Positions 1 through 16,890 of a DNA stretch of 16,890 nucleotides are shown one piece after another. The stretch is from an uncultured Anaerovibrio sp. (GTDB lineage Bacteria; Bacillota; Negativicutes; Selenomonadales; Selenomonadaceae). Position 1 is the stretch's first letter. Every line of letters starts with the position of its first letter. The DNA lies in assembly GCA_934196075.1 (NCBI GenBank), contig CAKPVW010000044.1, positions 1 to 16,890 on the forward strand, read 5' to 3'. The notes below the pieces were generated by a model. It saw only the letters and a program-made list of their open reading frames with translations. It had not been told where the DNA came from and searched no databases. Position numbers and translations under genes: made by a program.

Positions 1-118
1 CATTAAGCACCGAGGCTCAGCAAGGGTTTTCTTAGGGTACTACCATCTGCTGTTCTATTCCAGCCAGTTCGCAAAATTTTCAAGTTGTGCCAAGGCGGGA
101 AATCGCTGTGAATACACT
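1..118. other. Left-edge sequence without a recognisable gene
   Basis: No recognisable gene is seen here. One plus-strand frame is open from the window edge to a TGA at about 122-124, and a minus-strand frame is open for about 33 codons between stops. Neither translation resembles a family I know. Either could be the tail of a gene cut by the window edge, or chance. The stretch ends where the long palindrome starts at 120. Confidence 0.3.
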
Positions 119-119
119 A

Positions 120-298: not shown

Positions 299-370
299 AA
301 ATAGTATTATGAATAATCCGTCAGACCTACAAATCAGAATTTATAAACTAGGATATTTTATGGAGACAGC

Positions 371-399
371 TTTTTTTTTATACAGATTTGTACTATAAT
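371..399 (+). promoter_or_regulatory. Possible promoter of the tetrapyrrole operon
   Basis: A perfect TATAAT at 394-399 lies 78 bp before the first gene. The -35 region at correct spacing is only a T-run (about 371-376), so the match rests on the -10 hexamer and its position. No riboswitch or operator is recognised between it and the start codon. Confidence 0.4.
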
Positions 400-477
400 T
401 AAAAGCTGAATGAAATTCATTTTAGGCTAATTAGGGTGGAAAATTTACTTCTCAAGGTAGCTAGGGCGGAGGTTGAT

Positions 478-3362: not shown

Positions 3363-3378
3363 GAGGTTTGGGTTGGTT

Positions 3379-4899: not shown

Positions 4900-4901
4900 T
4901 C

Positions 4902-5885
4902 ATGGAAAATTCATTTGAGCAGAAGCTGCGTCCTCGTCGTATGAGAATCAATGAAAATATTCGGGCTATGGTGCGGGAAACCAATATTTCTGTTAAGGAT
5001 TTTGTTTATCCTATCTTTGTGGTGCCTGGGGAGAATATTAAGGAAGAAATTCCTAGTATGCCTGGCTGTTACCATCTATCTGTGGACAAGGCTGTGGAGC
5101 TGGCTAGAGAGATTTCGGCTTTGGGAATTCCCAGCGTAGAGGTTTTTGGTCTGCCTGAGTATAAGGATGCTATTGGCTCTAGTGCTTGGGATATGACCTC
5201 TCCTGTACAGCGGGCTATGCAGGCTATCAAGGCAAAGGTGCCTGAGCTGGTGATTGTGGGTGATGTATGTCTGTGTCAATACACTAACCATGGTCATTGC
5301 GGTGAGCTGTGTGGTCATTATGTAGACAATGATGCTACCTTGAAGCATTTGCAGAAGGTAGCTGTCAGCCAGGCAGAGGCTGGGGCAGATATTATTGCTC
5401 CTTCGGATATGATGGATGGACGAGTGGCTGCTATTCGTCAGGCTTTGGATGACAAGGGCTTTATCAATACTTCTATTATGTCCTATGCGGTAAAATACGC
5501 ATCTGGCTACTATGGGCCTTTCCGGGATGCAGCAGATTCTGCGCCACAGTTTGGGGATCGTAGGGCTTATCAGATGGATCCTGCCAATAGCCGGGAGGCT
5601 ATGAAAGAGGTTGAGCTGGATCTGGCTGAGGGTGCAGATATTATCATGGTAAAGCCAGCACTGGCTTATCTGGATGTGGTGCGTCAGGTACGAGATACTA
5701 TTAATCGTCCAGTAGCTGTGTACAATGTCAGCGGTGAATATGCTATGGTAAAGGCTGCTGCTGCTAATGGCTGGATTGATGAAAAGCGGATTGTGCTGGA
5801 GACTTTGACCAGCATGAAGCGGGCTGGTGCAGATATTATTATCACCTATCATGCTATTGATGCTGCCAAGTGGTTAAAGGGCTAA
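4902..5885 (+). CDS. hemB: Porphobilinogen synthase (delta-aminolevulinic acid dehydratase)
   Basis: HemB joins two 5-aminolevulinates into porphobilinogen. The 327-residue length is standard. The active-site lysines are Lys198 (SYAVKYASGYYGPFRDA) and Lys251 (IIMVKPALAYLD). The sequence GDVCLCQYTNHGHCG carries Cys123, Cys125 and Cys133, the zinc-binding triad of the zinc-dependent class, rather than the aspartate-rich magnesium form. APSDMMDGRV (166-175) is also typical. AAGGAGG at 4885-4891 lies inside the end of cobA-hemD, ten bases before ATG 4902, with only two bases between the genes. Confidence 0.97.
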   Translation: MENSFEQKLRPRRMRINENIRAMVRETNISVKDFVYPIFVVPGENIKEEIPSMPGCYHLSVDKAVELAREISALGIPSVEVFGLPEYKDAIGSSAWDMTSPVQRAMQAIKAKVPELVIVGDVCLCQYTNHGHCGELCGHYVDNDATLKHLQKVAVSQAEAGADIIAPSDMMDGRVAAIRQALDDKGFINTSIMSYAVKYASGYYGPFRDAADSAPQFGDRRAYQMDPANSREAMKEVELDLAEGADIIMVKPALAYLDVVRQVRDTINRPVAVYNVSGEYAMVKAAAANGWIDEKRIVLETLTSMKRAGADIIITYHAIDAAKWLKG

Positions 5886-5947
5886 TTAGCGGGTGTAGTC
5901 TCAGATACTGTAAGGAATCTGAGGCGAATCAGAGGAGGAAAATTTGT

Positions 5948-7273
5948 ATGCTGAATCTTGAAAAATCTGCAGCAGCTTTTGTTGAGGCAAAAAAACTTAT
6001 GCCAGGCGGCGTTAATAGTCCGGTACGCTCCTATAGAAGTGTGGACTGTAATCCACCCTTTATTGCTAGAGCAGAGGGCAGTCATATCTATGATATTGAC
6101 GGCAATGATTATATTGACTATGTAGGTTCCTGGGGGCCTATGGTGGTGGGCCATGCTCATCCACAGGTGGTAAAGGCCTTGCAGGAAGCAGCCACTAAAG
6201 GCACCAGCTATGGTGCCCCTACCTTGATTGAGTCTCAGCTGGCCAAGAAGGTTATGGAGGTATATCCATCTATTGAAGTTATCCGTATGGTAAACTCTGG
6301 TACAGAGGCTACCATGAGTGCTTTGAGATTGGCTAGAGGCTATACTCATCGGAATAAGATTGTAAAATTTATAGGTTGTTATCATGGCCATAGTGATAGC
6401 CTGCTAGTAAAGGCCGGCAGCGGTATGGCTACCTTTGGGGTGCCGGACAGCCCCGGGGTTACACCGGGTACAGCTCAAGATACCATAACTATTCCGTATA
6501 ATGATTTTGAAGCTGTCAAGGAGGTTTTTGCGGAGCAGGGACAGGAGATTGCAGCGATAATTGTGGAGCCGGTGGCTGGCAATATGGGTTTGGTACTGCC
6601 AAAGCCTGGTTATCTGGATTTGCTGCGGAAGGTTACGGAGGACAATGGTGCTCTGTTGATTTTTGACGAGGTTATGTGTGGCTTCCGTGCTTCTCTGGGC
6701 GGTGCTCAGGCGGCCTATGCTATAAAGCCTGATTTGACCTGCTTGGGCAAGATTATCGGCGGTGGTCTGCCTGTGGCTGCCTATGGTGGCAGACGGGATA
6801 TTATGGAGCAGGTTTCTCCTGCTGGTCCTGTATATCAGGCAGGTACTCTCTCTGGCAATCCTTTGGCTATGACTGCTGGCTTGGAGACCTTGAAGATTAT
6901 AACTGCTCCTCCAGAGCCAGGGGAGCCTGACTATAGCCGGGTACTGACCATCAAGACCAAGAAATTGGTGCTGGGCGTGGCTCAGAAGGCTAAAGAGGCT
7001 GGCGTTACCTTGCAGGTACAGCAGGCTGGCTCTATGTTTGGCTTCTTCTTCAGTCCTGTGGAGGTAGTTGACTATGAAACCTCTGCGGCAGCAGATCAGG
7101 AAGCCTTCAAGGTATGGTTTAAGGCTATGCTGGAACAGGGTATCTATATTGCGCCTAGTCAGTTTGAGACTTTGTTTATGTCCGGGGCTCATACTGATGA
7201 AGAAATTGACAGAACTATTGAGGCCGCAGGCAAGGCTCTGCAGCAGGTGGCTGAATATTTGCAGAAGCGCTAA
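5948..7273 (+). CDS. hemL: Glutamate-1-semialdehyde 2,1-aminomutase
   Basis: HemL is the PLP enzyme converting glutamate-1-semialdehyde to 5-aminolevulinate, the partner of HemA. From ATG 5948 the protein has 441 residues, close to the family norm. GAGGAGG at 5932-5938 is nine bases upstream; an earlier in-frame start near 5870 lies within hemB and would add a non-family N-terminus. Motifs: LMPGGVNSPVRSY near 17-29, NSGTEATMSALRLAR (116-130), CYHGHSDSLLVKAGSG, FDEVMCGFR (239-247) and CLGKIIGGGLPVAAYGG, where Lys268 is the PLP lysine. TLSGNPLAMTAGL follows. It is the last gene of the operon, 62 nt after hemB, and is followed by a strong terminator. Confidence 0.97.
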   Translation: MLNLEKSAAAFVEAKKLMPGGVNSPVRSYRSVDCNPPFIARAEGSHIYDIDGNDYIDYVGSWGPMVVGHAHPQVVKALQEAATKGTSYGAPTLIESQLAKKVMEVYPSIEVIRMVNSGTEATMSALRLARGYTHRNKIVKFIGCYHGHSDSLLVKAGSGMATFGVPDSPGVTPGTAQDTITIPYNDFEAVKEVFAEQGQEIAAIIVEPVAGNMGLVLPKPGYLDLLRKVTEDNGALLIFDEVMCGFRASLGGAQAAYAIKPDLTCLGKIIGGGLPVAAYGGRRDIMEQVSPAGPVYQAGTLSGNPLAMTAGLETLKIITAPPEPGEPDYSRVLTIKTKKLVLGVAQKAKEAGVTLQVQQAGSMFGFFFSPVEVVDYETSAAADQEAFKVWFKAMLEQGIYIAPSQFETLFMSGAHTDEEIDRTIEAAGKALQQVAEYLQKR

Positions 7274-7280
7274 ATAGAAA

Positions 7281-7319
7281 AGGGACTGATGCGAATTGGC
7301 ATTCAGTCCCTAATTTTTT
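7281..7319 (+). terminator. Intrinsic terminator of the tetrapyrrole operon
   Basis: AGGGACTGA (7281-7289) pairs with TCAGTCCCT (7303-7311), followed by AATTTTTT. It begins eight bases after the hemL stop codon. Confidence 0.92.
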
Positions 7320-7321
7320 GC

Positions 7322-7354
7322 AAAAAAATGACCGAAGATTGCATCCCTTCGGTC
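7322..7354 (-). terminator. Minus-oriented terminator-like hairpin
   Basis: GACCGAAG (7330-7337) pairs with CTTCGGTC (7347-7354). The run of seven A at 7322-7328 becomes a T-tract on the minus strand, so the signal reads right to left. No minus-strand gene lies nearby. It may block antisense transcription into hemL, or be a relic. Confidence 0.55.
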
Positions 7355-7393
7355 CAGCACATGAAAATAACAAAAAATATAAGTGCTTTTGAG

Positions 7394-7422
7394 TTGAACT
7401 TAACGTTCACCGATAGTATATA
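7394..7422 (+). promoter_or_regulatory. Possible upstream promoter with short dyad
   Basis: TTGAAC (7394-7399), 17 bp, TATATA (7417-7422). The perfect-arm dyad TGAACTTAACGTTCA (7395-7409) overlaps the -35. The region is very AT-rich, so chance is possible. Confidence 0.35.
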
Positions 7423-7525
7423 TAAATTTTGAAATATTGTCCAGTAAAATTTTTGATAAATTTAATTGAATATGATGGCTAGAGCTAGTGATAGATTAGA
7501 ATCGGATTACAAATATTTTTGGATT

Positions 7526-7554
7526 TTGCATTTGCTGTAGAATATCAGTATAAT
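7526..7554 (+). promoter_or_regulatory. Sigma-A-type promoter of the secreted-protein gene
   Basis: TTGCAT (7526-7531), 17-bp spacer, TATAAT (7549-7554), about 90 bp before ATG 7643. A small hairpin, GCAGAT (7574-7579) with ATCTGC (7588-7593), falls in the predicted leader. Confidence 0.75.
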
Positions 7555-7642
7555 ATTAATATGTATAAGAATAGCAGATGGTAAACAATCTGCTTGGGAA
7601 GATGTGTAGAGAGTTGCGAAAAGGATTAAGGAGGAGTGTTTT

Positions 7643-8563
7643 ATGGTAAAAAAATTGATGAGTCTGCTGATGTGTGCAGTTTTGATGTTTACTATGACGG
7701 GAACAGCTTTTGCAGATGTGGCCAATACGGCTGAGGATAAACTGTCTGCTGTAGAGATTACTTTATATGGTACAGCTCAGACGGGCCCACTGTCTGATAG
7801 AATTGACAGGTTGGAAAAGGATTTTGAGGGGGCATATACTGGTGGCAGTATGATGGATCGCATAAATGCTTTATATGATGCCACCTATGACAATTCTGTC
7901 AGTCCTTCTCTGATTACCCAGATGAATGCATTGGAATGGACCATTTCCCACAAGGTGAGTATGGACTGTATGCAGCAGCGGGTGACAGATATGGAGATTA
8001 ATGTTAAAGGCAAAACATCTACGGGCACCTTTAAATCTAGAGTAGAGCTTCTGTCCGAATTTGCCTTTGGCTCCAAGACTATTCCATTGGTGCAGACCAC
8101 GATTCCTGCTAATACCTTGGCTAAGGTAGCTTTGGTAGATAGGCTCAATGCCAAGAATTTGAAAAAGGGTGATGTTATCCGCTTGAAAGCCGCTGAGGAT
8201 GTAATTGAGGATGGTATGCTGCTGTTTACTGAGGGCGCTGCCGGTGAGGGTGTTGTAACCAAGGTCAGCCAGGCCAAGAATTTTGGCCGCAATGCGGAGA
8301 TTGAAATTGATTTCAAGTATTTGACGGCAGTGGATGGTCGCCAGCTGGATATGGTGCTGGGGGAGGAATCCAAGAAGAGTATGGAACAGCTTGGTATGGC
8401 TGCTGGAGCAAGTATTGCTGGCATGCTGGTGCTGGGGCCAATTGGCATCATTGGCGGAGCCTTCGTTAACGGCAAGAATATTGATTTGCCAGAGGGCACT
8501 GAGCTGTATATCCAGACCCGTAATGATGAGGTAATCTACGCAATCCCAACCACCGCAGAATAA
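7643..8563 (+). CDS. Secreted protein with LE-YG-type repeats and C-terminal glycine-rich segment, function unknown
   Basis: I do not recognise a named function. The 306-residue product starts with a clear Sec signal peptide: MVKK, a hydrophobic core, and AFA-D, with likely cleavage after residue 24. Two related units follow at about 34-63 and 113-143, sharing the order E-I-x-x-x-G-x-x-x-T-G-x-x-x-x-R-x-x-x-L; a partial unit lies near 67-80. The region 150-240 looks beta-rich (ANTLAKVALVDRL, KKGDVIRLKAAEDV, EGVVTKVSQAKNFGRNAE). Residues 252-283 form a hydrophobic glycine-zipper-like stretch (MAAGASIAGMLVLGPIG) before DLPEGTELYI. This suggests an envelope or periplasmic protein. AAGGAGGAG at 7628-7636 supports ATG 7643. 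The HEPN gene starts 27 nt after its stop and may share its transcript. Confidence 0.8.
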   Translation: MVKKLMSLLMCAVLMFTMTGTAFADVANTAEDKLSAVEITLYGTAQTGPLSDRIDRLEKDFEGAYTGGSMMDRINALYDATYDNSVSPSLITQMNALEWTISHKVSMDCMQQRVTDMEINVKGKTSTGTFKSRVELLSEFAFGSKTIPLVQTTIPANTLAKVALVDRLNAKNLKKGDVIRLKAAEDVIEDGMLLFTEGAAGEGVVTKVSQAKNFGRNAEIEIDFKYLTAVDGRQLDMVLGEESKKSMEQLGMAAGASIAGMLVLGPIGIIGGAFVNGKNIDLPEGTELYIQTRNDEVIYAIPTTAE

Positions 8564-8590
8564 GCTTTGAATATATGGAGGGTGATAGGT

Positions 8591-8992
8591 ATGACCTTGG
8601 AGGCTCGATATAAATCCTACACGCACTCCTTAGAGGTGCTGGCAAAAGCAAAAGAACGAGATTTAAGCGACTCATTTATTGCCTGTGGAATATGTGGCAA
8701 GTTCTCCATAACATTTGATTTGGCTTGGAAGGTGATGAAGGATATTCTGTGGCAGCATTATGAGATTACGGATTTTGTGGCAGGCTCTCCAAGAGAGGTA
8801 TTGCGACATTCCTTCAGGGCTCGGCTGATTCAAGGCGATGAATGGATGGAAATGCTAAAGGTTCGCAATCAGCTGTCTCATGATTATGATGGATTGGTGG
8901 TAAAGGAATATTGCCAGACTATTGTGGATAGCTATATTGACAAGCTGGAGGAATTTCAGGCTAGAGTAGTTACTGTATTGCAGGATGCATAA
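8591..8992 (+). CDS. HEPN-domain protein, HI0074 / nucleotidyltransferase substrate-binding family
   Basis: This 133-residue, mainly helical protein matches the HI0074-type family (NTase_sub_bind, related to HepT). Such proteins normally pair with a small minimal nucleotidyltransferase (MNT) encoded next door; some HepT pairs act as toxin-antitoxin modules in which the HEPN partner is an RNase modified by MNT. Visible features are KFSITFDLAWKVMKD (37-51), SPREVLRHSFRARLI (66-80) and VRNQLSHDYD, which contains the HEPN motif R-x4-H-x-Y (Arg92, His97, Tyr99). ATG 8591 has GGAGG at 8577-8581 nine bases ahead; an in-frame TTG at 8567 is less likely. No MNT gene is found on either side, which is unusual. 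A 54-bp fragment matching the 3' part of this gene occurs at 11651-11704. Confidence 0.85.
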   Translation: MTLEARYKSYTHSLEVLAKAKERDLSDSFIACGICGKFSITFDLAWKVMKDILWQHYEITDFVAGSPREVLRHSFRARLIQGDEWMEMLKVRNQLSHDYDGLVVKEYCQTIVDSYIDKLEEFQARVVTVLQDA

Positions 8993-8998
8993 AGAAAC

Positions 8999-9143
8999 AT
9001 AACGAGGTGTCCGATGTCTCCCACCTCTACAGGTGGCGGGATGTTGTGCTAATGACAGGGTGGAGCTAATATCTCCACCCTTGTCGAAACCCCATTGAAA
9101 GAAAATGCAAAGGTATTTTCTTTGAATAATGTAGGGGTTATAA
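8999..9143 (+). repeat. Structured 145-bp repeat, copy 1
   Basis: This nearly matches 13351-13495, the same length with the same ends (ATAACGAGG to GGGGTTATAA). Predicted pairings: closing stem ACGAG (9002-9006) with CTTGT (9080-9084); hairpin CCACCT (9021-9026) with AGGTGG (9031-9036); hairpin GGGTGGAG (9058-9065) with CTCCACCC (9073-9080); and a long A/T-rich 3' hairpin from AACCCC to GGGGTT with AAAGAAAATGC facing GTATTTTCTTT. An alternative pairing, GAGGTG (9004-9009) with CACCTC (9022-9027), excludes the first two. Strand is assigned from the orientation shared by all copies. No ORF lies inside. It may be a mobile-element derivative or a structured RNA. Confidence 0.85.
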
Positions 9144-9145
9144 AC

Positions 9146-9191
9146 AAAAAGATTAGCAATTGTCTTTGACGAGGCTTGCTAATCTTTTTTT
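9146..9191 (+). terminator. Intrinsic terminator after the HEPN gene and repeat copy 1
   Basis: AAAGATTAGCAA (9148-9159) pairs perfectly with TTGCTAATCTTT (9176-9187), followed by further T. This 12-bp stem separates the HEPN region from the acyltransferase cassette. Confidence 0.9.
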
Positions 9192-9206
9192 ATGCTGTTA
9201 AGTGTC

Positions 9207-9234
9207 TTGCTAGGGGGGGCAAAAGTATTATAAT
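9207..9234 (+). promoter_or_regulatory. Promoter of the SGNH-MBOAT cassette
   Basis: TTGCTA (9207-9212), 16-bp spacer, TATAAT (9229-9234), just after the terminator and about 30 bp before the TTG start. Confidence 0.6.
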
Positions 9235-9263
9235 GATAGACAACAAGCGGAGGTGGTTTGCCA

Positions 9264-10268
9264 TTGATTAGTGGAAGAAAACTATTTTTTTATTTTAGTG
9301 TATTTGTATTGGTAACGTTAGTAGCTAATGGAATTTGCTATTTTTATTACAGTCCTGCGATACAAATTGCAAATCATGAAAAATTTACAGATTTGAAAAA
9401 CATTACATCCAATCATAATCCACATGGTGGGGAAGGATATGGAAACATTACCATAGATCAAAATGGTTTTAACAATCAATCAAAATTTCCTATTGAAGAT
9501 TCTAGGATAGTGTGTATAGGATCTTCTCAAACAGAAGCGCAGCATGTTGGATCTAATGAAAATTTTGTGAGCATAATAAATCAGGAATATCCAGAAGCAA
9601 AGGCATATAATGTAGGTATTTCAGCTTCTACCTTTGCAAGTACTTTTTTTAGAATAACACCATTAAAAGAAAAATTTCCCAATGCACGTGTTTTTATTTT
9701 TGAGATAAATAACATGCCATCCTTAGAAGATTTAAAAAGAATGGAAAAAATACTGTCTGAAAATAATGTGCCTGAGAAAGATATTAGTTGGAAAAATGGT
9801 AATTTTATTTTGAAGGCTATGGGAACTATTCCACTTTGTAGATTACTTTGGAAGCAATATGATCATCAAAGGAAGAATGCTGACAGCAAGCCGGTAAAAA
9901 AGGAGTCCTTTGATGGTGAGTCATATGAATATTATTTAAGACGTGTGCTGTCATTAGGAAAGAAAAAAGCGGGAAATACCGATATTGTAATATTTTATTT
10001 GGCTAGCACAAAACTTGATAAAAATGGAGAAATTGAAATTAGTGAAGATGATGGGCAGAATGCTATATTTAAGAAGACATGCAAGGATATAGGTATTAAC
10101 TATTTAGATATGTCAGTGCCGTTTACAGAGTCCTATAGAAGAAAACATGTTTTACCGTATGGTTTTCTCAACAGTCGTATAGGAACAGGTCATTTAAATA
10201 TATATGGACACCGCATTATAGCTGATTCGTTAGAAAAAATTTTGGAGGATGGTGCTTATATAAGATGA
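9264..10268 (+). CDS. Membrane-anchored SGNH/AlgX-like acyltransferase partner protein
   Basis: A ~334-residue protein with one N-terminal membrane segment (about residues 5-26) and an extracytoplasmic SGNH-like domain. Block I is IVCIGSSQTEAQ, with the second serine of GSS in the nucleophile position. YNVGIS fits the block II glycine, and GTGHLNIYGH holds the C-terminal histidine region. The partner MBOAT gene overlaps by four bases (ATGA), so the pair resembles AlgI with AlgJ/X, or DltB with DltD, in which the SGNH protein completes acyl transfer to an exported polymer. No ATG fits the start. TTG 9264 is seven bases after GGAGGTGG (9249-9256); TTG 9258 is too close. The gene is visibly AT-rich compared with the tetrapyrrole genes. 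Substrate is unknown. Confidence 0.78.
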   Translation: MISGRKLFFYFSVFVLVTLVANGICYFYYSPAIQIANHEKFTDLKNITSNHNPHGGEGYGNITIDQNGFNNQSKFPIEDSRIVCIGSSQTEAQHVGSNENFVSIINQEYPEAKAYNVGISASTFASTFFRITPLKEKFPNARVFIFEINNMPSLEDLKRMEKILSENNVPEKDISWKNGNFILKAMGTIPLCRLLWKQYDHQRKNADSKPVKKESFDGESYEYYLRRVLSLGKKKAGNTDIVIFYLASTKLDKNGEIEISEDDGQNAIFKKTCKDIGINYLDMSVPFTESYRRKHVLPYGFLNSRIGTGHLNIYGHRIIADSLEKILEDGAYIR

Positions 10269-11638
10269 ATTTTTTTAGTATAAATTTCTTGCTATTTTTT
10301 TTAGTTGTTATAGTAATATTAAAAAATACAAAAAAATTAGACCAACGTAATATTGTATTACTAATATCAAGTTATACATTTTATGGAGTTTGGGATATAC
10401 GTTTCTTAGCATTATTGTTTTTTATATCCATGACAGTTTATGTTAGTGGATTAAATATTAAAAACAAGGCGTTTTTATATGCGGGGGTATTAATACCTTT
10501 AGTTTCATTGGGACTATTCAAGTACTTTAATTTTTTTAGTCAATCCTTTAGCAATTTATTTGGAATTTCTGATTTTGTAACATTGAATGTGGTGCTTCCT
10601 CTGGGAATATCTTTTTATGTTTTTTTGGCGATAAGCTATGTATTGGATGTTTATCATAATAAAATTCCTTGCGAAAGGAATTTTGTCAATGTGTTGTTAT
10701 ATATAAGTTTTTTTCCTACAATAGTATCTGGCCCCATAACAAAAGCAAGAGTTCTTTTGCCACAGATACAAGTATTTAATCCTATAAAGATTAATGCTAT
10801 ATACATCGGCGTTCAATTTTTTATGCTTGGCTGCATAAAAAAATTTGTTTTAGCAGATAATATGGGGGTATTGGTGGATGAAGTATATAGCGCACCGTTA
10901 GCATTTGATAGTTTAACGGTATGGTTAGCTGTTATATCGTATTCCATTCAACTTTATTTAGATTTTTCCGGCTATTCGGATATGGCAATTGGTTGTGCAA
11001 AATGTCTAGGATTTAATTTAACAGAAAACTTTAACATGCCGTATTTAGCAAAAAATATTAGTGAGTTTTGGAAGCGATGGCATATAAGCTTGTCCTCCTG
11101 GTTGCAGGAGTATTTGTACTTTAGCTTAGGAGGAAGTCATTGTAGCAAAATAAAAACTTATCGCAATTTATTGGTGACCATGTTGATTTGCGGGCTTTGG
11201 CATGGAGCAGCTTGGAATTTTATTTTATGGGGTGGCGTACATGGAATAATATTGTTAGTTCATAAGTGTTATCAGGAGTCTATTGGCTCTAGAATAAACA
11301 TGCCATCTGTTGTTAAGGTGTTATTGACTTTTTTGGCAGTTACAATTTGTTGGATTTTCTTTAGAGCCTCAGATTTAACCAATATTACACAGATTTTATA
11401 TAGAATGTTTATTTTTGATATGAATCATATTAATCATATGTATATATGGTCAGTAATAGGAATTATATGGATGATTTCAATATCTATATATGTTGTGTAC
11501 AAATTAGATTGGAATGGAATGCGCCCTGTTTATGATATAACAAGTGGTAAGGGATTTTTTGTATTTTGCTTGGAACTATATTTTATATTAGGGCTTTTTT
11601 ATACGGGAAATAATCCTTTTGTATATGCTGCATTTTGA
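10265..11638 (+). CDS. MBOAT family O-acyltransferase (AlgI/DltB-like)
   Basis: This 457-residue polytopic membrane protein belongs to the MBOAT family, which moves acyl groups across the membrane for O-acylation of exported polysaccharides or teichoic acids. Motifs in order: FKYFNFF (85-91), LPLGISFYVF (111-120), FFPTIVSGPITK (149-160), YLDFSGYSDMAIG (231-243), NFNMPYLAKNISEFWKRWH with His273, then GLWHGAAWNFILWGG with the putative catalytic His313. The start overlaps the SGNH gene by ATGA, indicating coupled translation. It is AT-rich with many ATA and AGA codons, like its partner, which suggests joint acquisition. No glycosyltransferase or polymerase genes surround it, so the acylated polymer must be made elsewhere. 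No terminator follows directly. Confidence 0.93.
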   Translation: MNFFSINFLLFFLVVIVILKNTKKLDQRNIVLLISSYTFYGVWDIRFLALLFFISMTVYVSGLNIKNKAFLYAGVLIPLVSLGLFKYFNFFSQSFSNLFGISDFVTLNVVLPLGISFYVFLAISYVLDVYHNKIPCERNFVNVLLYISFFPTIVSGPITKARVLLPQIQVFNPIKINAIYIGVQFFMLGCIKKFVLADNMGVLVDEVYSAPLAFDSLTVWLAVISYSIQLYLDFSGYSDMAIGCAKCLGFNLTENFNMPYLAKNISEFWKRWHISLSSWLQEYLYFSLGGSHCSKIKTYRNLLVTMLICGLWHGAAWNFILWGGVHGIILLVHKCYQESIGSRINMPSVVKVLLTFLAVTICWIFFRASDLTNITQILYRMFIFDMNHINHMYIWSVIGIIWMISISIYVVYKLDWNGMRPVYDITSGKGFFVFCLELYFILGLFYTGNNPFVYAAF

Positions 11639-11650
11639 TAACGCCCAAAC

Positions 11651-11704
11651 TGCCAGACGATTGTGGATAGCTATATTGGCATGCTGAAGGAGTTTTCTTA
11701 TTAA
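11651..11704 (+). pseudogene. 3' fragment of an HI0074/HEPN-family gene
   Basis: Translation from 11651 to TAA 11702-11704 reads CQTIVDSYIGMLKEFSY, against CQTIVDSYIDKLEEFQA near the end of the HEPN protein at 8591-8992. DNA identity is about 40 of 45 bases and starts abruptly at TGCCAGAC. The fragment lies 12 bp after the MBOAT stop. Nothing upstream matches, so it is a decayed paralogue or partial duplication flanking the acyltransferase cassette. Confidence 0.8.
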
Positions 11705-11832
11705 GGTGAAATATATGGTATAATTGGTGTGAAAGATAGAAGTATCAAAAAATGATGTAATTGAGGATAATGGGTTTTATTATATAAAGACGTAAGCGAC
11801 TGTTTAAAACTATAGAGGAAGGAGTGAATGAA

Positions 11833-12006
11833 ATGTGTGAGGTCATTGAGAAATATATAGCTGAAGGACGACGTGAAGGTAGGCGTGAGGGAAAGGCAGA
11901 GGCTATAAGAAGCTTGATGGAGTCCATGAGTATGACAGCGGAGCAGGCTATGAAAGCTTTGAAAATACCAGCAGGAGAGTTTGGGAAATATATGACCTTG
12001 CTGTGA
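11833..12006 (+). CDS. Small charged protein with EGRREGRREGKAEA repeat
   Basis: A 57-residue product starting MCEVIEKYIAEGRREG. ATG 11833 has GGAAGGAG (11817-11824) eight bases upstream; GTG 11824 overlaps that site. Residues 10-24 are a charged repeat, followed by a helix and a short helix-turn-helix-like tail (MTAEQAMKALKIPAGEFGKYM). The composition resembles the C-terminal tails of Rpn/PD-(D/E)XK transposase-like nucleases, where EGR/EGK repeats precede a short alpha-helical end, so this may be a detached tail or an independently expressed small protein. No nuclease core is visible upstream. A TATAAT at 11719-11724 could belong to its promoter, but no good -35 is seen. A shared terminator follows. 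Confidence 0.6.
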   Translation: MCEVIEKYIAEGRREGRREGKAEAIRSLMESMSMTAEQAMKALKIPAGEFGKYMTLL

Positions 12007-12018
12007 TGGATTAGAATG

Positions 12019-12057
12019 AAAAAACTCGTGCTCCTGAGTGGGAGGACGAGTTTTTTT
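12019..12057. terminator. Bidirectional terminator between the small ORF and bioY
   Basis: AAAAACTCGT (12020-12029) pairs with ACGAGTTTTT (12046-12055), with inner CTCC/GGAG pairing. A-tract on the left and T-tract on the right let it work for both converging genes. Confidence 0.9.
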
Positions 12058-12099
12058 GTGCCCGAATGGGGGAATATAGATATCTAATGACGAAGTTTT

Positions 12100-12666
12100 T
12101 TAGTCTAAATGAAATAGGGGCTTGATGCGTTTTACCATAAAGGCTGCCACAATGCATAGGCAGATATCTCCTGGTACTGCCAAAATAAAACAGTAGAGGA
12201 AGAGAGGCCATAGGGCAATAGGGGTATCAATTACATAATTGCAGATAATATAGTAGTATACCATGCCCATGCCGTATACTACCAGTAGGCCGGCGAAGTT
12301 GGCAGCCAGATAATAAGATATTTTCTGACTAGTGTTTTTCTCTGCTAGATAGGCAGTCAGCCAGGTGCCCATGGCGAAGCCAATGAGGTAACCGAAGCTA
12401 GGCTTGAATACATACCAAAATCCGCCTCCTTCGGCGAAGATGGGCAAGCCAACAAGTCCTAGCAGTACATAGGTTAGTACAGCCATAGTTCCCCAGCGGC
12501 GGTCCAGCAGAAGGCCTGCCAGCATGGTGAATAAATATTGCAAGGTAAAGGGTACCACTGGTACGGGAATCTTAATAAAAGCACCACTGGCAATGAGGGC
12601 TACGAAAAGCCCACAATAGGTAAGTGCCCGGGTTTTGTTACGACTATGTGAAATAGCTGTAGACAA
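12100..12666 (-). CDS. bioY: Biotin transporter S component BioY
   Basis: BioY is the substrate-binding membrane subunit of ECF-type biotin uptake. The 188-residue protein has about six hydrophobic segments, and the family pattern is clear: IKIPVPVVPFTLQ, LLGLVGLPIFAEGGG, and FKPSFGYLIGFAMG. No EcfA or EcfT gene is nearby, so it would use a shared energising module or act alone. The start is TTG 12666: AAGGAG (12680-12675 on the minus strand) lies eight bases before it, whereas GTG 12675 overlaps that site. It is convergent with the small ORF and shares its terminator. A likely BirA operator overlies its promoter, giving biotin-dependent repression. Confidence 0.95.
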   Translation of the reverse strand: MSTAISHSRNKTRALTYCGLFVALIASGAFIKIPVPVVPFTLQYLFTMLAGLLLDRRWGTMAVLTYVLLGLVGLPIFAEGGGFWYVFKPSFGYLIGFAMGTWLTAYLAEKNTSQKISYYLAANFAGLLVVYGMGMVYYYIICNYVIDTPIALWPLFLYCFILAVPGDICLCIVAAFMVKRIKPLFHLD

Positions 12667-12709
12667 ATAAATCACTCCTTTGATTTTGCACTAAATTGAC
12701 TACAGTATT

Positions 12710-12738
12710 ATTTTAGCTGTTTATGGGAATATTGTCAA
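12710..12738 (-). promoter_or_regulatory. bioY promoter
   Basis: Read on the minus strand: TTGACA (12738-12733), 17-bp spacer, TAAAAT (12715-12710). The start codon is about 45 bp downstream. Confidence 0.85.
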
Positions 12739-12763
12739 CTAATCACGTGTTGTTGGTTGACGA
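12732..12763. promoter_or_regulatory. BirA (biotin repressor) operator
   Basis: On the plus strand TTGTCAACT (12732-12740), 14 bp, GGTTGACGA (12755-12763) form an interrupted inverted repeat. It resembles the BirA box TTGTAAACC-N14-16-GGTTTACAA. One half overlaps the bioY -35, as expected for a repressor site. The function of the neighbouring gene makes the call much stronger than the match alone. Confidence 0.75.
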
Positions 12764-12769
12764 AAACAT

Positions 12770-12830
12770 AACACGATTTCCGATGTCCTCAATCTCTATA
12801 ATAGACTCAGTATATCAAGCTGTGGGATTA
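12770..12830 (+). repeat. Possible decayed copy of the structured repeat
   Basis: The stretch shares TCCGATGTC and CTCTATA in the same order and spacing as the structured repeats at 8999, 13351 and 16267. It also begins with ATAACACGA, recalling their ATAACGAGG. The hairpin arms are not preserved. It may be a relic or coincidence. Confidence 0.3.
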
Positions 12831-12878
12831 AGTGGCAATTGCTAAAAGGCAGTGTGAGTTTTTTAGGAAAAAAGACAA

Positions 12879-12908
12879 CAAAAAAGCCCGAAGCCTTGCT
12901 TCGAGCTA
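12879..12908 (-). terminator. Terminator of tRNA-Glu
   Basis: On the minus strand AGCTCGAAG and CTTCGGGCT pair across a short loop and lead into a T-run (plus-strand A-run 12879-12885). It lies ten bases past the tRNA 3' end. Confidence 0.88.
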
Positions 12909-12917
12909 TTATATGCG

Positions 12918-12992
12918 TGGTGACGCGTAAGGGATTCGAACCCTTGAAGCCGCCGTGAGAGGGCGGAGTCTTAACCACTTGACCAACGCGCC
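12918..12992 (-). tRNA. tRNA-Glu (anticodon CUC)
   Basis: The 75-nt gene has all four arms and an encoded CCA. The acceptor strands GGCGCGT and ACGCGTC pair with one G-U. The anticodon stem CCGCC/GGCGG encloses CTCTCAC, giving anticodon CTC at 12957-12959. T-loop TTCGAAT is present. It reads GAG codons. Charged tRNA-Glu is also the substrate of HemA. Confidence 0.96.
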
Positions 12993-13005
12993 GTGAACAA
13001 GAAAT

Positions 13006-13034
13006 ACTATACCATATTGAAAAATATAATGCAA
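13006..13034 (-). promoter_or_regulatory. tRNA-Glu promoter
   Basis: On the minus strand TTGCAT (13034-13029), 17-bp spacer, TATAGT (13011-13006), about 14 bp before the tRNA 5' end. Confidence 0.75.
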
Positions 13035-13132
13035 GCTTTTTTTGAAAAAATAAAAATAACGAGGCGACAGATGGTTTTAGGAGAATGAATTTGTGTACTA
13101 TGGAAGAGGTTTTGTGATAAAATTAAAATAGC

Positions 13133-13160
13133 ATAAAAAAACGGTTGCTTATGCAACCGC
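13133..13160 (-). terminator. Terminator of tRNA-Gly
   Basis: CGGTTGC (13142-13148) pairs with GCAACCG (13153-13159). The plus-strand A-run at 13135-13141 is a T-tract on the minus strand, downstream of the tRNA. Confidence 0.92.
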
Positions 13161-13171
13161 TTAAATTTCTA

Positions 13172-13245
13172 TGGAGCGGGCGAGGGGAATCGAACCCCCC
13201 TCTTTAGCTTGGGAAGCTGACATTCTACCAATGAACTACGCCCGC
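13172..13245 (-). tRNA. tRNA-Gly (anticodon CCC)
   Basis: The 74-nt gene has acceptor GCGGGCG/CGCCCGC, encoded CCA and T-loop TTCGATT. The anticodon loop TTCCCAA gives CCC at 13211-13213, reading GGG. The anticodon stem TCAGC/GCTAA has a C-A mismatch at positions 28 and 42 (13219 and 13205). Confidence 0.94.
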
Positions 13246-13271
13246 AAATTATGAAAACCAATAACATTTAT

Positions 13272-13300
13272 ATAATAGCACGTTTTATATATAATTTCAA
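13272..13300 (-). promoter_or_regulatory. tRNA-Gly promoter
   Basis: On the minus strand TTGAAA (13300-13295), 17-bp spacer, TATTAT (13277-13272), 27 bp before the tRNA. Confidence 0.78.
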
Positions 13301-13350
13301 GAATTGGATTTTATTTTTCTTTTGGCTTGTCATATAGTCAGACCTGATAT

Positions 13351-13495
13351 ATAACGAGGTGTCCGATGTCTCCCACCTCTATAGGTGGCTGGAGGCTGTG
13401 CTAATGACAGGGTGGAGCTAATATCTCCACCCTCGTCGAAACCCCATTGAAAGAAAATGCAAGGGCATTTTCTTTGAATAATCTAGGGGTTATAA
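13351..13495 (+). repeat. Structured 145-bp repeat, copy 2
   Basis: Same ends and length as copy 1 with only scattered changes. The closing stem is fully Watson-Crick here: ACGAG (13354-13358) with CTCGT (13432-13436), where copy 1 has a G-U. The 3' hairpin also changes from G-U to G-C (ATGC facing GCAT). The end GGGGTTATAAT creates a TATAAT at 13491-13496 pointing toward the large hairpin downstream. It sits between the divergent tRNA-Gly promoter and the ilvB leader region. Confidence 0.85.
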
Positions 13496-13509
13496 TGGAG
13501 ATAAGAAAA

Positions 13510-13638
13510 GACCACCAGCAGGCGGCTTGTCCTCCTCGCTAGTCGGTTAATGTTTACATTCACTGCCTCACCCCCTCAGAGTTGAATTTCTCCTTTCTGC
13601 GAGGGTGCAAACAAAACCGCCTGCCGCTTATGGTGGTC
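13510..13638 (+). other. Large nested hairpin, candidate structured RNA upstream of ilvB
   Basis: GACCACCAGCAGGCGG (13510-13525) pairs with CCGCCTGC (13617-13624) and TGGTGGTC (13631-13638), leaving a six-base bulge. Inside, TCCTCGC (13533-13539) can pair with GCGAGGG (13599-13605). CCCTC near 13573-13577 competes for the same GAGGG. No ORF or known riboswitch signature is seen, and no T-box sequence. It may be a free-standing RNA, part of a longer ilvB leader, or another repeat. Confidence 0.6.
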
Positions 13639-13654
13639 AGCAGTATAACTGCCG

Positions 13655-13714
13655 AAATAAGTATATCGTATTGCTGTTTCTATGTATATAGCAATACGAT
13701 ATACTTATTTTGAT
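13655..13714. other. Perfect 21-bp hairpin
   Basis: Bases 13655-13675 (starting AAATAAGTATATCG) are exactly reverse-complemented by 13690-13710, with a 14-base loop and TTTT at 13708-13711. It is AT-rich, so a weak terminator or a small inverted-repeat element are both possible. It ends 25 bp before the ilvB -35. Confidence 0.85.
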
Positions 13715-13735
13715 TGTAAAATTGTAAAGTTCGTA

Positions 13736-13765
13736 TTGAAATAATCTATTAGATTGGGGTATAAT
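13736..13765 (+). promoter_or_regulatory. ilvBN promoter
   Basis: TTGAAA (13736-13741), 18-bp spacer, TATAAT (13760-13765). It gives a leader of about 175 nt before ilvB. Confidence 0.72.
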
Positions 13766-13773
13766 AGAGCGAA

Positions 13774-13888
13774 ATATCCCATGTTTTCAACCTTTGTTGG
13801 TGTTGGCATGGGATATGTGGGAGTGTTTTTTTACTTGGTCTGTGGCTGGCGTAATGTTTTGGTACGAGGCTTTAGGCTGAATTTGTAA
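13774..13888 (+). promoter_or_regulatory. ilvB leader: hairpin and possible 35-codon leader ORF
   Basis: ATATCCCATG (13774-13783) pairs with CATGGGATAT (13807-13816), followed nine bases later by seven T (13826-13832). An ORF from ATG 13781 to TAA 13886-13888 encodes 35 residues, seven Val and four Leu (for example YVGVFFYLVCG and NVLVRG). No ribosome site precedes it, and there are no Ile codons. Attenuation is possible but unproven. Confidence 0.35.
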
Positions 13889-13948
13889 TAGTCCGTCGTT
13901 ATGGGGCGTATGTGGCGCCGGCGGCAAAGGGGAGGAATTTTCTTGTTG

Positions 13949-15640
13949 ATGAATGGAGCACAGGCTGTACTGGAAAGCCTGAGACGGGAAAATGTAGAAG
14001 TAATATTTGGTTATCCGGGCGGAGCGGTTCTGGATCTTTATGATGCCCTCTACAAGGCAAAGTATCCTCATATCCTTACCCGCCATGAGCAGGGTGCTGT
14101 GCACGGGGCAGATGGTTATGCTAGAGCTACCGGCAAGGTAGGAGTTTGCTTTGCTACCTCTGGTCCTGGTGCCACCAATTTGATTACAGGTATAGCCACA
14201 GCCAATATGGATTCTATTCCTATGGTGTGTTTTACCGGTCAGGTAGGCAACCCTTATATTGGCAAGGACTCCTTTCAGGAGGCGGATATTGTAGGTATTA
14301 CTACTCCTATTACCAAGCACAATTATTTGGTAAAAAAGGTGCAGGAATTGCCTCGGGTTATCAAGGAAGCCTTCTTTATTGCCAGCACCGGCCGTCCTGG
14401 TCCGGTGGTAATTGATATTGCCAAGGATGTTTTCACCGCAGAGCTGGACTACGAATATCCAGAAAAGGTATATCTGCCAGGCTATACTGGGGATTTTACC
14501 GGAGATGAACAACAGGTGGCAGAGGTAGTAGAGCTGCTGCAGGAGGCCAAGCGTCCTCTGTTCTTTATTGGCGGCGGTCTGAACCTATCCAACCAAGCTG
14601 AGCTGTTTCGTCGGATTGTGGATCATACCCATATACCTGTGGTTAGCTCCCTGATGGGGCTGGGCTGTGTTCCATCTACTCAGGATGGCTTCCTGGGAAT
14701 GGTGGGCATGCATGGCTCTTATGCGGCCAATATGGCAGTACAGGAATGTGATGTGTTGATTGGTGTAGGTGTACGCTTTGACGATCGGGTTATTGGCAAG
14801 GTGGCGGCTTTTGCTCCTAAGGCCAAGATTGTGCATTTCGACGTGGATCGGGCCGAAATCAACAAAAATGTACTGGCAGATTATCCTGTTGTGGGGGATT
14901 TGCGTTGGTCCTTGCCAATTTTTGCCCATTTGCTGCAAAGCTCTGGGGATAATTATGCAGGACGCTTTAATGTTTGGCGGAATTATGTCATTGAGATGAA
15001 TGACCAATATCCTTTTGCTTATGAGAAGCATAGTGATTATATTATGCCTCAGGAGCTGATTGAGACTGTTAGCCAGCTGGTGGATGACGATACCATTGTG
15101 GTTACAGATGTAGGTCAGCATCAGATGTGGGCGGCGCAGTTCTTTAATAGTCGCCAGCCACGTCAGTTCCTTACCTCTGGCGGCTTGGGTACCATGGGCT
15201 ATGGCCTGCCTGCTGCTCTAGGGGCCAAGCTGGGGCAGCCGGCTAAAAAGGTAGTGCTCTTTACAGGCGATGGCAGTATTATGATGAACTGCCAGGAAAT
15301 GTCCACCGCTGCAGATAATGATATTGATGTGAAAATTGTTTTGCTGCACAACAGAGTGCTGGGCATGGTTACTCAGTGGCAGAGAATGTTCTATGGCAAG
15401 CGTTATTCTCAGACCTTGCTGGGAGGCAAGACTGATTTTGTTAAGCTGGCTGAGGCCATGGGTATGAAGGCCTGCCGCATCAGCAAGCCAGAGGAACTGC
15501 TGCCAGGGCTGCGGGCAGCCTTGGAGACAGAGGGGCCTATGCTGATAGATGTGATGCTGCCTGCTAATGAGGATGTACTGCCAATGGTGGCACCAGGAGC
15601 CTGCATCAGTGATATGGTACTGGGAGGAGAAAAGGAATGA
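13949..15640 (+). CDS. ilvB: Acetolactate synthase large (catalytic) subunit
   Basis: IlvB is the ThDP- and FAD-dependent enzyme condensing pyruvate to acetolactate (or with 2-oxobutyrate) for Val, Leu and Ile synthesis. About 563 residues, standard length. The N-terminal FGYPGGAVLDLYDAL (20-34) and RHEQGAVHGADGYARA include catalytic Glu47. SGPGATNLITG follows, then GVRFDDRV. The C-terminal domain has GDGSIMMNCQE and LLHNRVLGMVTQWQ; the usual NN of the ThDP motif reads HN. GGAGG (13931-13935) is 13 bases before ATG 13949; TTG 13943 or 13946 would be better spaced and is possible, since other genes here use TTG. It overlaps ilvN by ATGA. Confidence 0.96.
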   Translation: MNGAQAVLESLRRENVEVIFGYPGGAVLDLYDALYKAKYPHILTRHEQGAVHGADGYARATGKVGVCFATSGPGATNLITGIATANMDSIPMVCFTGQVGNPYIGKDSFQEADIVGITTPITKHNYLVKKVQELPRVIKEAFFIASTGRPGPVVIDIAKDVFTAELDYEYPEKVYLPGYTGDFTGDEQQVAEVVELLQEAKRPLFFIGGGLNLSNQAELFRRIVDHTHIPVVSSLMGLGCVPSTQDGFLGMVGMHGSYAANMAVQECDVLIGVGVRFDDRVIGKVAAFAPKAKIVHFDVDRAEINKNVLADYPVVGDLRWSLPIFAHLLQSSGDNYAGRFNVWRNYVIEMNDQYPFAYEKHSDYIMPQELIETVSQLVDDDTIVVTDVGQHQMWAAQFFNSRQPRQFLTSGGLGTMGYGLPAALGAKLGQPAKKVVLFTGDGSIMMNCQEMSTAADNDIDVKIVLLHNRVLGMVTQWQRMFYGKRYSQTLLGGKTDFVKLAEAMGMKACRISKPEELLPGLRAALETEGPMLIDVMLPANEDVLPMVAPGACISDMVLGGEKE

Positions 15641-16137
15641 AAAAATATATTTTAGCAGTCCTTGTAGACAATAAGCCAGGTGTTTTGACCCATGTATCTG
15701 GGCTGATTAGCCGTCGTGCCTTTAATATTGAGAGTATTTCTGCTGGTTATACTGAGGAACGGGATGTTACCAGAATCAATATTGAGGTTTCCGTAGAGGA
15801 TAATCGGGAGCTGGAGCAGGTGGTTAGCCAGTTAGGCAAGCTGATAGATGTGATCAAGATTGTCAATTTAGGTCAGGTGGATTCCATTGTCCGTGAGCTG
15901 GTACTGCTAAAGGTTAAGGCTCAAAAGGAAACCCTTTCGGATATTCGCAATATTGTAGATATTTTTCGGGGCAAGATTGTGGATGTAAGTCCAGAGAATG
16001 TGGTTATTGAGCTGACTGGTTCTCGCAGCAAGATTGAAGCTATCTGTGAAATGCTGGCGGAGTTCCAGATAATTGAGATTGCGAGAACCGGCGCCATTGC
16101 CTTGTCCCGAGGCCCTGTTCCAGTAAAGAATATGTAA
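15637..16137 (+). CDS. ilvN: Acetolactate synthase small (regulatory) subunit
   Basis: The 166-residue protein is the ACT-domain subunit that raises IlvB activity and confers feedback inhibition by branched-chain amino acids. The ACT domain is at about 3-78: ILAVLVDNKPGVLTHVSGL, then FNIESISAGYTEERDVTRI. The C-terminal domain (about 85-160) matches the family with LVLLKVKA and ELTGSRSKIEA. GGAGGAGAAAAGG at the end of ilvB provides the ribosome site, and the start overlaps the ilvB stop by four bases. The length is that of the bacterial IlvH/IlvN class. No clear terminator follows directly, so some transcription may run into the rubrerythrin leader. Confidence 0.96.
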   Translation: MKKYILAVLVDNKPGVLTHVSGLISRRAFNIESISAGYTEERDVTRINIEVSVEDNRELEQVVSQLGKLIDVIKIVNLGQVDSIVRELVLLKVKAQKETLSDIRNIVDIFRGKIVDVSPENVVIELTGSRSKIEAICEMLAEFQIIEIARTGAIALSRGPVPVKNM

Positions 16138-16156
16138 AATAAAATATAATATCCTC

Positions 16157-16184
16157 TTGACTTTTTGCCATTAAATGATAGACT
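16157..16184 (+). promoter_or_regulatory. Rubrerythrin promoter
   Basis: TTGACT (16157-16162), 16-bp spacer, TAGACT (16179-16184). The Fur/PerR-type dyad begins five bases later, where a bound repressor would cover the start site. Confidence 0.55.
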
Positions 16185-16188
16185 ATTA

Positions 16189-16213
16189 GTAACGGATAAT
16201 TATTATCCATTAC
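16189..16213. promoter_or_regulatory. Fur/PerR-family operator (7-1-7 box)
   Basis: GGATAATTATTATCC (16194-16208) is a perfect 7-1-7 inverted repeat, and flanking GTAAC/ATTAC extends it with one mismatch. The core ATAAT-N-ATTAT matches the shared core of Bacillus Fur (TGATAATNATTATCA) and PerR (TTATAATNATTATAA) boxes. Rubrerythrin is a common PerR target in anaerobes, so PerR-like control is the likeliest reading; Fur is not excluded. Confidence 0.72.
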
Positions 16214-16224
16214 TTGATAGATGT

Positions 16225-16264
16225 CCGCCTGATTTGCGTAAGCAATTGACGGCGGGGGAGTTTT
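16225..16264 (+). terminator. GC-stem hairpin in the ilvN-rubrerythrin gap
   Basis: CCGCC (16225-16229) pairs with GGCGG (16251-16255), and TTGC (16234-16237) with GCAA (16242-16245). Only four T follow, after a gap. It may be a weak ilvBN terminator, or leader structure of the rubrerythrin transcript. Confidence 0.4.
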
Positions 16265-16266
16265 GT

Positions 16267-16356
16267 ATCTGCAGCGAGGTATCTGATGTCCCCACCTCTA
16301 TAGGTGACGGGATGTTGTGCCAATAACAGGAGGTTGTGTTTCCTGTTGTAGCAGAT
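16267..16356 (+). repeat. Structured repeat, diverged short copy 3, in the rubrerythrin leader
   Basis: The core from CGAGGT (16275) to AACAGG (16330) aligns with copies 1 and 2, including CCCACCTCTATAGGTG and GGGATGTTGTGC. The closing stem is different but perfect: ATCTGC (16267-16272) with GCAGAT (16351-16356). The second hairpin is also different: ACAGGA (16326-16331) with TCCTGT (16341-16346), replacing GGGTGGAG/CTCCACCC. The long 3' hairpin of the other copies is absent. It ends 11 bases before the rubrerythrin ribosome site. Confidence 0.75.
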
Positions 16357-16381
16357 GTATTTAGGATGAGGAGGTATTATT

Positions 16382-16890
16382 ATGGAATTGAAGGGTTCAA
16401 AGACATTGGAAAATCTGAAGGCTGCTTTTGCTGGTGAGTCTCAGGCGCATACCAAGTATCAGTATTTTGCTTCTCAGGCCAAGAAGGATGGCTATGTGCA
16501 GATTCAGAACATTTTTCTGGAGACTTCCAAGAATGAGAAAGAGCATGCCAAAATTTGGTACAAGCTTATTAACGACGGTGTAGGCTCCACGGAGGAGAAC
16601 CTGAAGGCTGCTGCCAGCGGTGAGAATGAGGAGTGGACCTCCATGTATCCTGAGTTTGCCAAAACTGCTCGTGAGGAAGGCTTTGACAAGATTGCTCAGC
16701 TCTTTGAGGCTGTGGCTGCTATTGAGAAGGAGCATGAGGAGCGTTACAAGATTTTGCTGGCCAATGTAGAGGCTGAGAAGGTTTTCAAGGCTGATGACAC
16801 CGTTATTTGGCAGTGCTCCAACTGTGGCTATGTATGCACTGGCAAGGAGGCTCCAGAGGAGTGCCCTGTATGTGCTCATCCTCAGTCCTA
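16382..16890 (+). CDS. rbr: Rubrerythrin (3' end cut by window edge)
   Basis: Rubrerythrin is a non-heme diiron peroxidase that removes hydrogen peroxide in anaerobes, with a C-terminal rubredoxin domain. 169 residues are visible. The ferritin-like domain carries Glu19 ([13 protein letters not shown]), the pair Glu52/His55 (NEKEHAKIW), Glu97 region ([10 protein letters not shown]) and Glu115/His118 (IEKEHEERY). The rubredoxin part has [10 protein letters not shown] (Cys145, Cys148) and CPVC (Cys161, Cys164). It stops at HPQS plus two bases; the family usually ends a few residues later. GAGGAGG (16368-16374) is seven bases before ATG 16382. A Fur/PerR-like box and a structured repeat lie in its upstream region. 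Confidence 0.97.

Follow-up and report, generated by a model that had tools for sequence, protein, structure and literature searches.

Which kind of sequence are the two near-identical 145-bp units that lie between genes in a contig of an uncultured Anaerovibrio sp.? The question arises from a stretch of 16,890 nt (assembly GCA_934196075.1, contig CAKPVW010000044.1, positions 1 to 16,890; "the window" below means this whole stretch), in which the units 8999-9143 and 13351-13495 lie at the coordinates given in the original prediction and share 137 of 145 positions (94.5% identity), and in which a repeat search gave a 150-nt pair at 93%. No open reading frame (ORF) of 60 amino acids (aa) or more lies inside either unit in the ORF list of the window, and 145 nt is too short for TnpA (Y1). 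It is almost certain that the repeats are a real family of non-coding mobile elements, unnamed in the libraries used, and that these elements are mobile. They look like a new family of small elements (mostly 135 to 165 nt) of the kind of the palindrome-associated transposable elements (PATEs), transposase-free and with palindromes near both ends. Copies 1 and 2 of the window are ordinary intergenic insertions.

The inner hairpins were named A (9020-9040) and B (9058-9080), and the 3' hairpin was named C. The parts of copies 1 and 2, with scores from the covariance model R1 described below, are as follows.

8999-9002, + strand: putative target-derived ATAA at the left junction of copy 1 (ATAAC at 108 of 121 left ends; for two other copies, the empty sites of relatives hold ATAA once)
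9003-9143, + strand: mobile element copy 1, ends C...GTTATAA (94.5% identity to copy 2; R1 96.5 bits, a training sequence)
9020-9040, + strand: hairpin A of copy 1, CCCACCT/AGGTGG(C)GGG, preceded by GATGTC (covarying; one pair, for instance, has changed from CG to UA in 7 of 20 rows)
9058-9080, + strand: hairpin B of copy 1, GGGTGGAG/CTCCACCC (two-sided changes at four pairs)
9085-9143, + strand: hairpin C of copy 1 and right terminus TTATAA, outer stem ACCCC/GGGGT (two-sided changes at three pairs; fold)
13351-13354, + strand: putative target-derived ATAA at the left junction of copy 2 (same basis as for copy 1)
13355-13495, + strand: mobile element copy 2 (R1 96.0 bits, a training sequence; absent, along with 42 nt of flank, at the orthologous place of the related genome G058)

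Distribution of the repeat

The covariance model R1 covers hairpins A and B. Among its 19 training sequences are the three window copies (copy 3 is described below) and loci from genomes G001 to G004 and G127. Of 151 genomes drawn from the family to which the Anaerovibrio slackiae genome G001 belongs, 58 had matches with E values of 0.001 or better, a count that includes the genomes that gave training rows, as did 19 of 299 and 26 of 398 genomes in two overlapping draws from the phylum. The search of related genomes suggested with the original prediction thus returned copies outside the R1 training set in dozens of genomes. Fourteen genomes of the 151-genome draw carried from at least 24 to at least 26 R1 matches each, and G034 at least 40 full-length matches (40 of 84 candidates were scored), 38 of them at 95 to 100% identity to the query copy, the query included. 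G058, the closest to the window among the genomes searched (up to 98% identity), had at least 13 element matches, some of them partial. All copy numbers per genome, from the R1 draws, for G034, and for the Bacillaceae-1 RNA of Lysinibacillus discussed below, are lower bounds.

An exact-pattern scan of the genome collection yielded 42 stretches, mostly from Selenomonas, together with Anaerovibrio, Hungateiclostridiaceae, Petroclostridium, Ruminiclostridium, Natronincola, a Clostridioides metagenome-assembled genome (MAG), a Peptococcaceae MAG, a few other Clostridia, and one Lysinibacillus. Conservation of the letters GATGTC..CCACCTCTAYAGGTG across these 42 loci is uninformative because the scan pattern demanded them.

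Comparison with Rfam, likewise suggested at the outset, placed no family on the repeat. In the window, two tRNAs were the only matches; in 14 element loci a thiamine pyrophosphate (TPP) riboswitch and one Bacillaceae-1 RNA adjoining the core (L024) were recognized and the core itself was unmatched; and at relaxed thresholds every match fell below its family cut-off. The repeat had no blastn match in plasmid and phage collections, and no published account of it was found in the literature searched, including that on Selenomonas ruminantium.

Ends, target, and empty sites

The element stands 3' of ATAA (usually TATAA), has the right end GTTATAA (CTTAA in one subfamily), and occupies sites that are empty in relatives. 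The ends were read in a larger set of pooled R1 hits, comprising 166 distinct copies, 121 of them with a recognized right end, a few of which are misassigned (e.g., L037, L105, and L211). Left out by hand were twice-fetched loci, copies cut by contig ends (L009 and L035), fold-back copies (L019 and L041), weak window hits, L050, L106, L114, L115, L116, L219, and the second L270 hit. The element spans 107 to 224 nt in the 121 copies and 135 to 165 nt in 109 of these. The left end reads ATAAC in 108 of the 121, preceded by T in 87% of 119, and the right end TTATAA in 91 of 98 copies, the search having required a complementary stem and TTA(T/C) with the last two bases free. In the alignment of 18 full-length copies (A2), all 18 start with ATAAC and end with TTATAA.

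Nine insertion sites of G064 were used as joined-flank queries against six genomes of its genus. Two were found cleanly empty. At the L093 site, G093 reads AGTAT-ATAA-TAAATCTG versus AGTAT-ATAAC...GTTATAA-TAAATCTG in G064, and the match extends 20 nt past the junction; at the L086 site, G077 reads CGC-TATAA-TGTG with a single ATAA, and the element is present in the opposite orientation in G002. At two more sites the flanks were contiguous and diverged, and the remaining five gave no junction-spanning match in the six genomes.

Copies of the main subfamily have ATAA at either end; by itself this could be a 4-bp duplication, and the empty sites alone would fit one too. The subfamily of G174, G292, G345, and their kin (G174 type) has ATAA on the left in 26 of 27 copies, and its right ends, recognized in 23 of 27 by a search that admitted TTAA, TTTAA, or TTATAA only, read CTTAA (19), CTTTAA (2), TTTAA (1), and CTTATAA (1). 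The unlike left and right letters argue against a duplicated target; no empty site was found for this subfamily. Judged from these letters, the left ones would belong to the target and the right ones to the element, as in IS200/IS605-type elements. Nothing beyond the 5-nt match ATAAC/GTTAT was found by way of a terminal inverted repeat, and of the two outer hairpins, A lies some 17 nt in from the left end and C at the right end; the description "palindromes near both termini without terminal inverted repeats" thus applies only loosely, owing to ATAAC/GTTAT.

These ends bear directly on a possible, if less probable, account, namely a miniature inverted-repeat transposable element (MITE) moved by a non-HUH enzyme, either a DDE transposase, which would duplicate 4 bp (ATAA), or, as has been proposed for Bacillus cereus bcr1, a site-specific recombinase. 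It is favored by the ATAA on both sides in the main subfamily, by Y1_Tnp genes that do not track the element (below), and by bcr-type repeats, which are described with TTTAT motifs and possible site-specific recombination (PMC6542083). However, the terminal inverted repeats end at ATAAC/GTTAT, the left and right letters differ in the G174 type, for which no empty site is known, and the base before the left ATAA varies, whereas that before the right ATAA was T in every copy read, as the search itself demanded.

Two side observations concern the ends. Perfect fold-back palindromes replace the left ends at L019 (1315-1400) and L041 (5886-5986), both of this family, and at L172 (about 500-550), a TnpB element. 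Another small repeat, containing CAATGTCATTAAGTTA, lies in or beside the element in L034, L012, and L029; in L034 it splits hairpin A and is accompanied by the direct repeat CTTCTATAAG.

Fold and covariation

Hairpins A, B, and C are kept by covariation. The test was made on 20 hand-picked diverse copies (alignment A3) with a structure derived from the same element family. Standard pairs filled 93.5% of the cells of the three hairpins, and two-sided changes were seen at 9 pairs and in 26 cells, versus shuffled means of 3.5 and 5.5, with none of 500 shuffles as high; when the partners were slid, pairing fell to 46 to 55%. Pairing-preserving changes, on which the original prediction was built, are thus real for both inner hairpins and the 3' hairpin, but not for the closing stem ACGAG/CTCGT, which showed no double changes in the 20 rows and was rejected as a feature of the family. 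In 44 representatives, positions 4 to 8 were paired in 160 of 220 cases, which is no better than the 158 of 220 with randomly dealt partners; the stem C count in that test is affected by misassigned right ends, and the A3 test is cleaner.

On the + strand both main copies fold into hairpins A, B, and C, with z scores of -6.8 (copy 1) and -4.9 (copy 2) and none of 200 shuffles as good. The minus strand folds well too (-3.6 and -5.2) because the hairpins are palindromes. The base of hairpin C differs by subfamily (CGCC/GGCG, CCCC/GGGG, GGCC/GGCC, and CACT/AGTG), and in some copies a further hairpin is present, either between A and B or between B and C.

Two further readings of the fold were given up. 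A riboswitch-like layout, proposed from the alternative pairing GAGGTG/CACCTC, did not survive, the exact pairing of that type occurring in 1 of 40 representatives, which is of the window type. A hammerhead-like reading of CTAATGA...GAAAC, made by eye, was dropped since the core is not kept in other subfamilies.

Proposed mechanism and the search for a helper

It is most likely, and held with moderate confidence, that the family is PATE-like and moved in trans by a Y1-type single-strand mechanism. A HUH transposase (Y1, IS200/IS605-like) supplied in trans would bind two hairpins of the single-stranded top strand, A close to the left end and C at the right end. It would make its cuts 3' of both ATAA and TTATAA and leave the flanks rejoined on excision; hairpin B is an additional conserved module. 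Among the guesses of the original prediction, a non-autonomous IS200/IS605-type derivative is the best-fitting class; an IS605 origin itself is unproven, since no autonomous element sharing these ends turned up.

Of 16 element-bearing genomes, 11 had genes of the Y1_Tnp family and 8 had the TnpB zinc-ribbon family. A scan of 54 Y1/TnpB loci (163 kb) with R1 at E values up to 1 gave 12 matches. In the two best elements the match lies just upstream of the gene (L155, E of 7e-4; L140/L161, one element, 0.013), and in L160/L172 it lies within the mapped left end (0.24 to 0.26). Compared by eye, hairpin A and the resident hairpins have the form TCCC.CCTCTATAGG.GG.G(R)GATG in common. The right ends of the mapped resident TnpB elements are unlike those of the element.

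Several results weigh against a Y1-type mechanism in trans. Y1_Tnp was not found in G002, G008, G034, G045, and G119, four of which hold at least 26 copies, although the genomes are in part drafts and true absence is less than certain; in the copy-rich G034 and G045 neither Y1_Tnp nor the TnpB zinc-ribbon family was found. Across the 151 genomes, Y1_Tnp was present in 29 of 58 with the element and in 38 of 93 without it, that is, without association (Fisher P = 0.31). Ends of the form ATAA|...TTATAA| were not seen on any autonomous element. The two resident types whose copies were compared (G001 and G064) begin after TTAT/TTTAT-like letters and finish with TCAA, and the Y1 element of G345 has different ends again. 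Matches to R1 at places that are not known left ends (L126, L125/L154, L122 twice, L158, and L164; E of 0.10 to 0.31) are about as good as L160/L172, with L164 ranking lower than that element and the other six rows higher, so the likeness of hairpin A to resident IS605-type hairpins appears weak and may reflect convergence of short hairpins. The folded strand was not discriminated, with 16 G.T versus 8 A.C pairs (P = 0.15). In G058, which lacks copy 2, 187 nt are missing, the element plus 42 nt of flank, and with flank lost as well the event cannot be placed to the exact base; for eight window-type sites of G058, none of 16 genomes had a match across the junction. Y1 genes of resident IS200/605 or RAYT-like kinds were rejected as the helper, as the mapped ones share no ends with the element and Y1_Tnp shows no association with it.

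A tentative alternative is an old and widespread orphan element, with the same three hairpins and ATAA target in Selenomonads and Clostridia and without a recognizable autonomous partner, which would be moved by an unrecognized enzyme or via its folded RNA, and in which hairpin C would be swappable, as for Bacillaceae-1 in Lysinibacillus. Should the absence of a Y1 transposase from copy-rich genomes prove real, the family would offer a handle on an unrecognized mobilizing enzyme.

Genomic context

For 151 copies, each with 350 nt or more of flanking sequence on either side, the surroundings were analyzed with a simple ORF call. Nine of the 151 overlap a long ORF. Among 87 copies with both neighbors within 400 nt, divergent genes flank 16 and convergent genes 12; the tandem ones run with the genes in 39 cases and against them in 20 (P = 0.018, where copies of the same genome are not independent). 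Judged by eye, the neighboring genes differ from copy to copy. The joined site reads TATAAT in 45 of 107 cases; promoter targeting was considered on that ground and given up because the -35 box is not enriched at 16 to 18 nt.

A multicopy regulatory or non-coding RNA acting in cis on neighboring genes, with mobility secondary, looks unlikely. The strong covariation and + strand folds, the tandem orientation, and the additional hairpin modules of some copies would suit it, but hairpins of single-stranded DNA account for the covariation equally, 20 of the 59 tandem copies face the opposite way, empty sites exist, no -35 enrichment ties the insertions to promoters, and the neighbors vary. An orphan guide RNA (omega RNA of IS605 TnpB type) left as a mobilized remnant, also among the original guesses, is highly improbable: the likeness of hairpin A to hairpins before some tnpB genes and the fixed element ends speak for it, and against it stand the absence of the TnpB zinc-ribbon family from 8 of 16 element-bearing genomes, including G034 and G045 (iscB was not searched for), the different mapped right ends of resident TnpB elements, and the lack of an Rfam match.

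Other features of the window

Three further stretches of the window match R1.

16268-16362, + strand: copy 3, diverged (R1 55.5 bits, E of 4.8e-13, a training sequence)
12765-12855, + strand: probable decayed copy, reduced to the left end and the 5' arm of hairpin A (R1 15.8 bits, E of 0.015; weak)
13053-13094, + strand: possible left-end remnant AATAACGAGGCGACAGATG (R1 10.5 bits, E of 0.38; alone not significant)

Copy 3 consists of hairpin A and a shortened hairpin B, is without a clean ATAAC left end or TTATAA right end, and lies about 20 nt upstream of the rubrerythrin gene. Copy 2 is flanked by a tRNA gene (13175-13245, - strand) on one side and a TPP-enzyme gene at 13901 on the other.

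Near copy 1, positions 8912-8956 and 11651-11695 form a 45-bp near-repeat (89%) of the 3' part of an NTase_sub_bind gene. Between these near-repeats lies a two-gene cassette (9258-11638) encoding a 336-aa protein without a Pfam match and a 457-aa MBOAT protein. Among the matches listed for the G058 contig with the upstream gene, similarity resumes only at window position 11779, which suggests that the cassette may have been inserted in this strain specifically. A perfect 22-bp inverted repeat (125-146 and 274-295), located where the window begins, encloses 127 nt.

Comparison with known systems

The family accounts for a recurrent repeat of rumen and gut Selenomonads that is absent from the libraries used, and the covariance model can serve to annotate its copies. 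The closest described elements are the PATEs of Haloquadratum walsbyi, which are described as short, with palindromes near the ends that resemble those of IS605-type transposons and with neither terminal inverted repeats nor target duplications, and as mobile although the IS200-type transposases are broken (PMC3119063). One PATE-like copy is described for Halanaerobium (PMC7290912). As far as these accounts go, the present family resembles PATEs in being too short to code, in its near-terminal palindromes, in a target of 4 to 5 nt left of the element, in having the palindrome farther from the end on the 5' side than on the 3' side, and in strain-specific insertions, which PATEs show even where IS200-type transposases are broken. 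Its testable features agree with those of PATEs, with the exceptions of the absence of duplication and the IS605 origin, both unproven. Unlike the PATEs so described, it has bacterial hosts, a third, internal covarying hairpin with extra modules in some copies, ends common to no autonomous element seen, and the same target letters in many species.

Like IS200/IS605 elements, the family inserts 3' of a short fixed sequence, has a hairpin close to each end, and has asymmetric ends; unlike them it carries no gene, and the resident members of G001 and G064 differ from it in their starts and ends, as given above. The bcr-type repeats are described as 100 to 400 bp long with TTTAT motifs and possible site-specific recombination (PMC6542083). 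Among them bcr1 is a small intergenic mobile repeat, sometimes within transcribed untranslated regions, and is described as restricted to the B. cereus group. Compared by description only, bcr1 is similar in size, intergenic position, mobility, and the TTTAT motif.

A further relation was seen in Lysinibacillus, the genus of G013, where the Bacillaceae-1 RNA (Rfam RF01690) is a high-copy interspersed repeat with 1 to at least 138 matches in 12 of 13 genomes (L315 to L343). R1, run at E values up to 1 on 29 of 30 fetched Bacillaceae-1 loci, gave seven matches directly 5' of Bacillaceae-1 on the same strand; the other 22 of the 29 loci had none. Several Lysinibacillus loci hold a larger composite in which an IS605-like hairpin is combined with Bacillaceae-1 as the 3' hairpin. 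In some loci Bacillaceae-1 occupies the place of hairpin C, whereas its sequence is different and the R1 scores there are low (13 to 26 bits). Because the R1 matches directly precede Bacillaceae-1 in these seven cases, hairpin C may be an exchangeable module, and an unexplained Rfam RNA is linked to the architecture of a mobile element.

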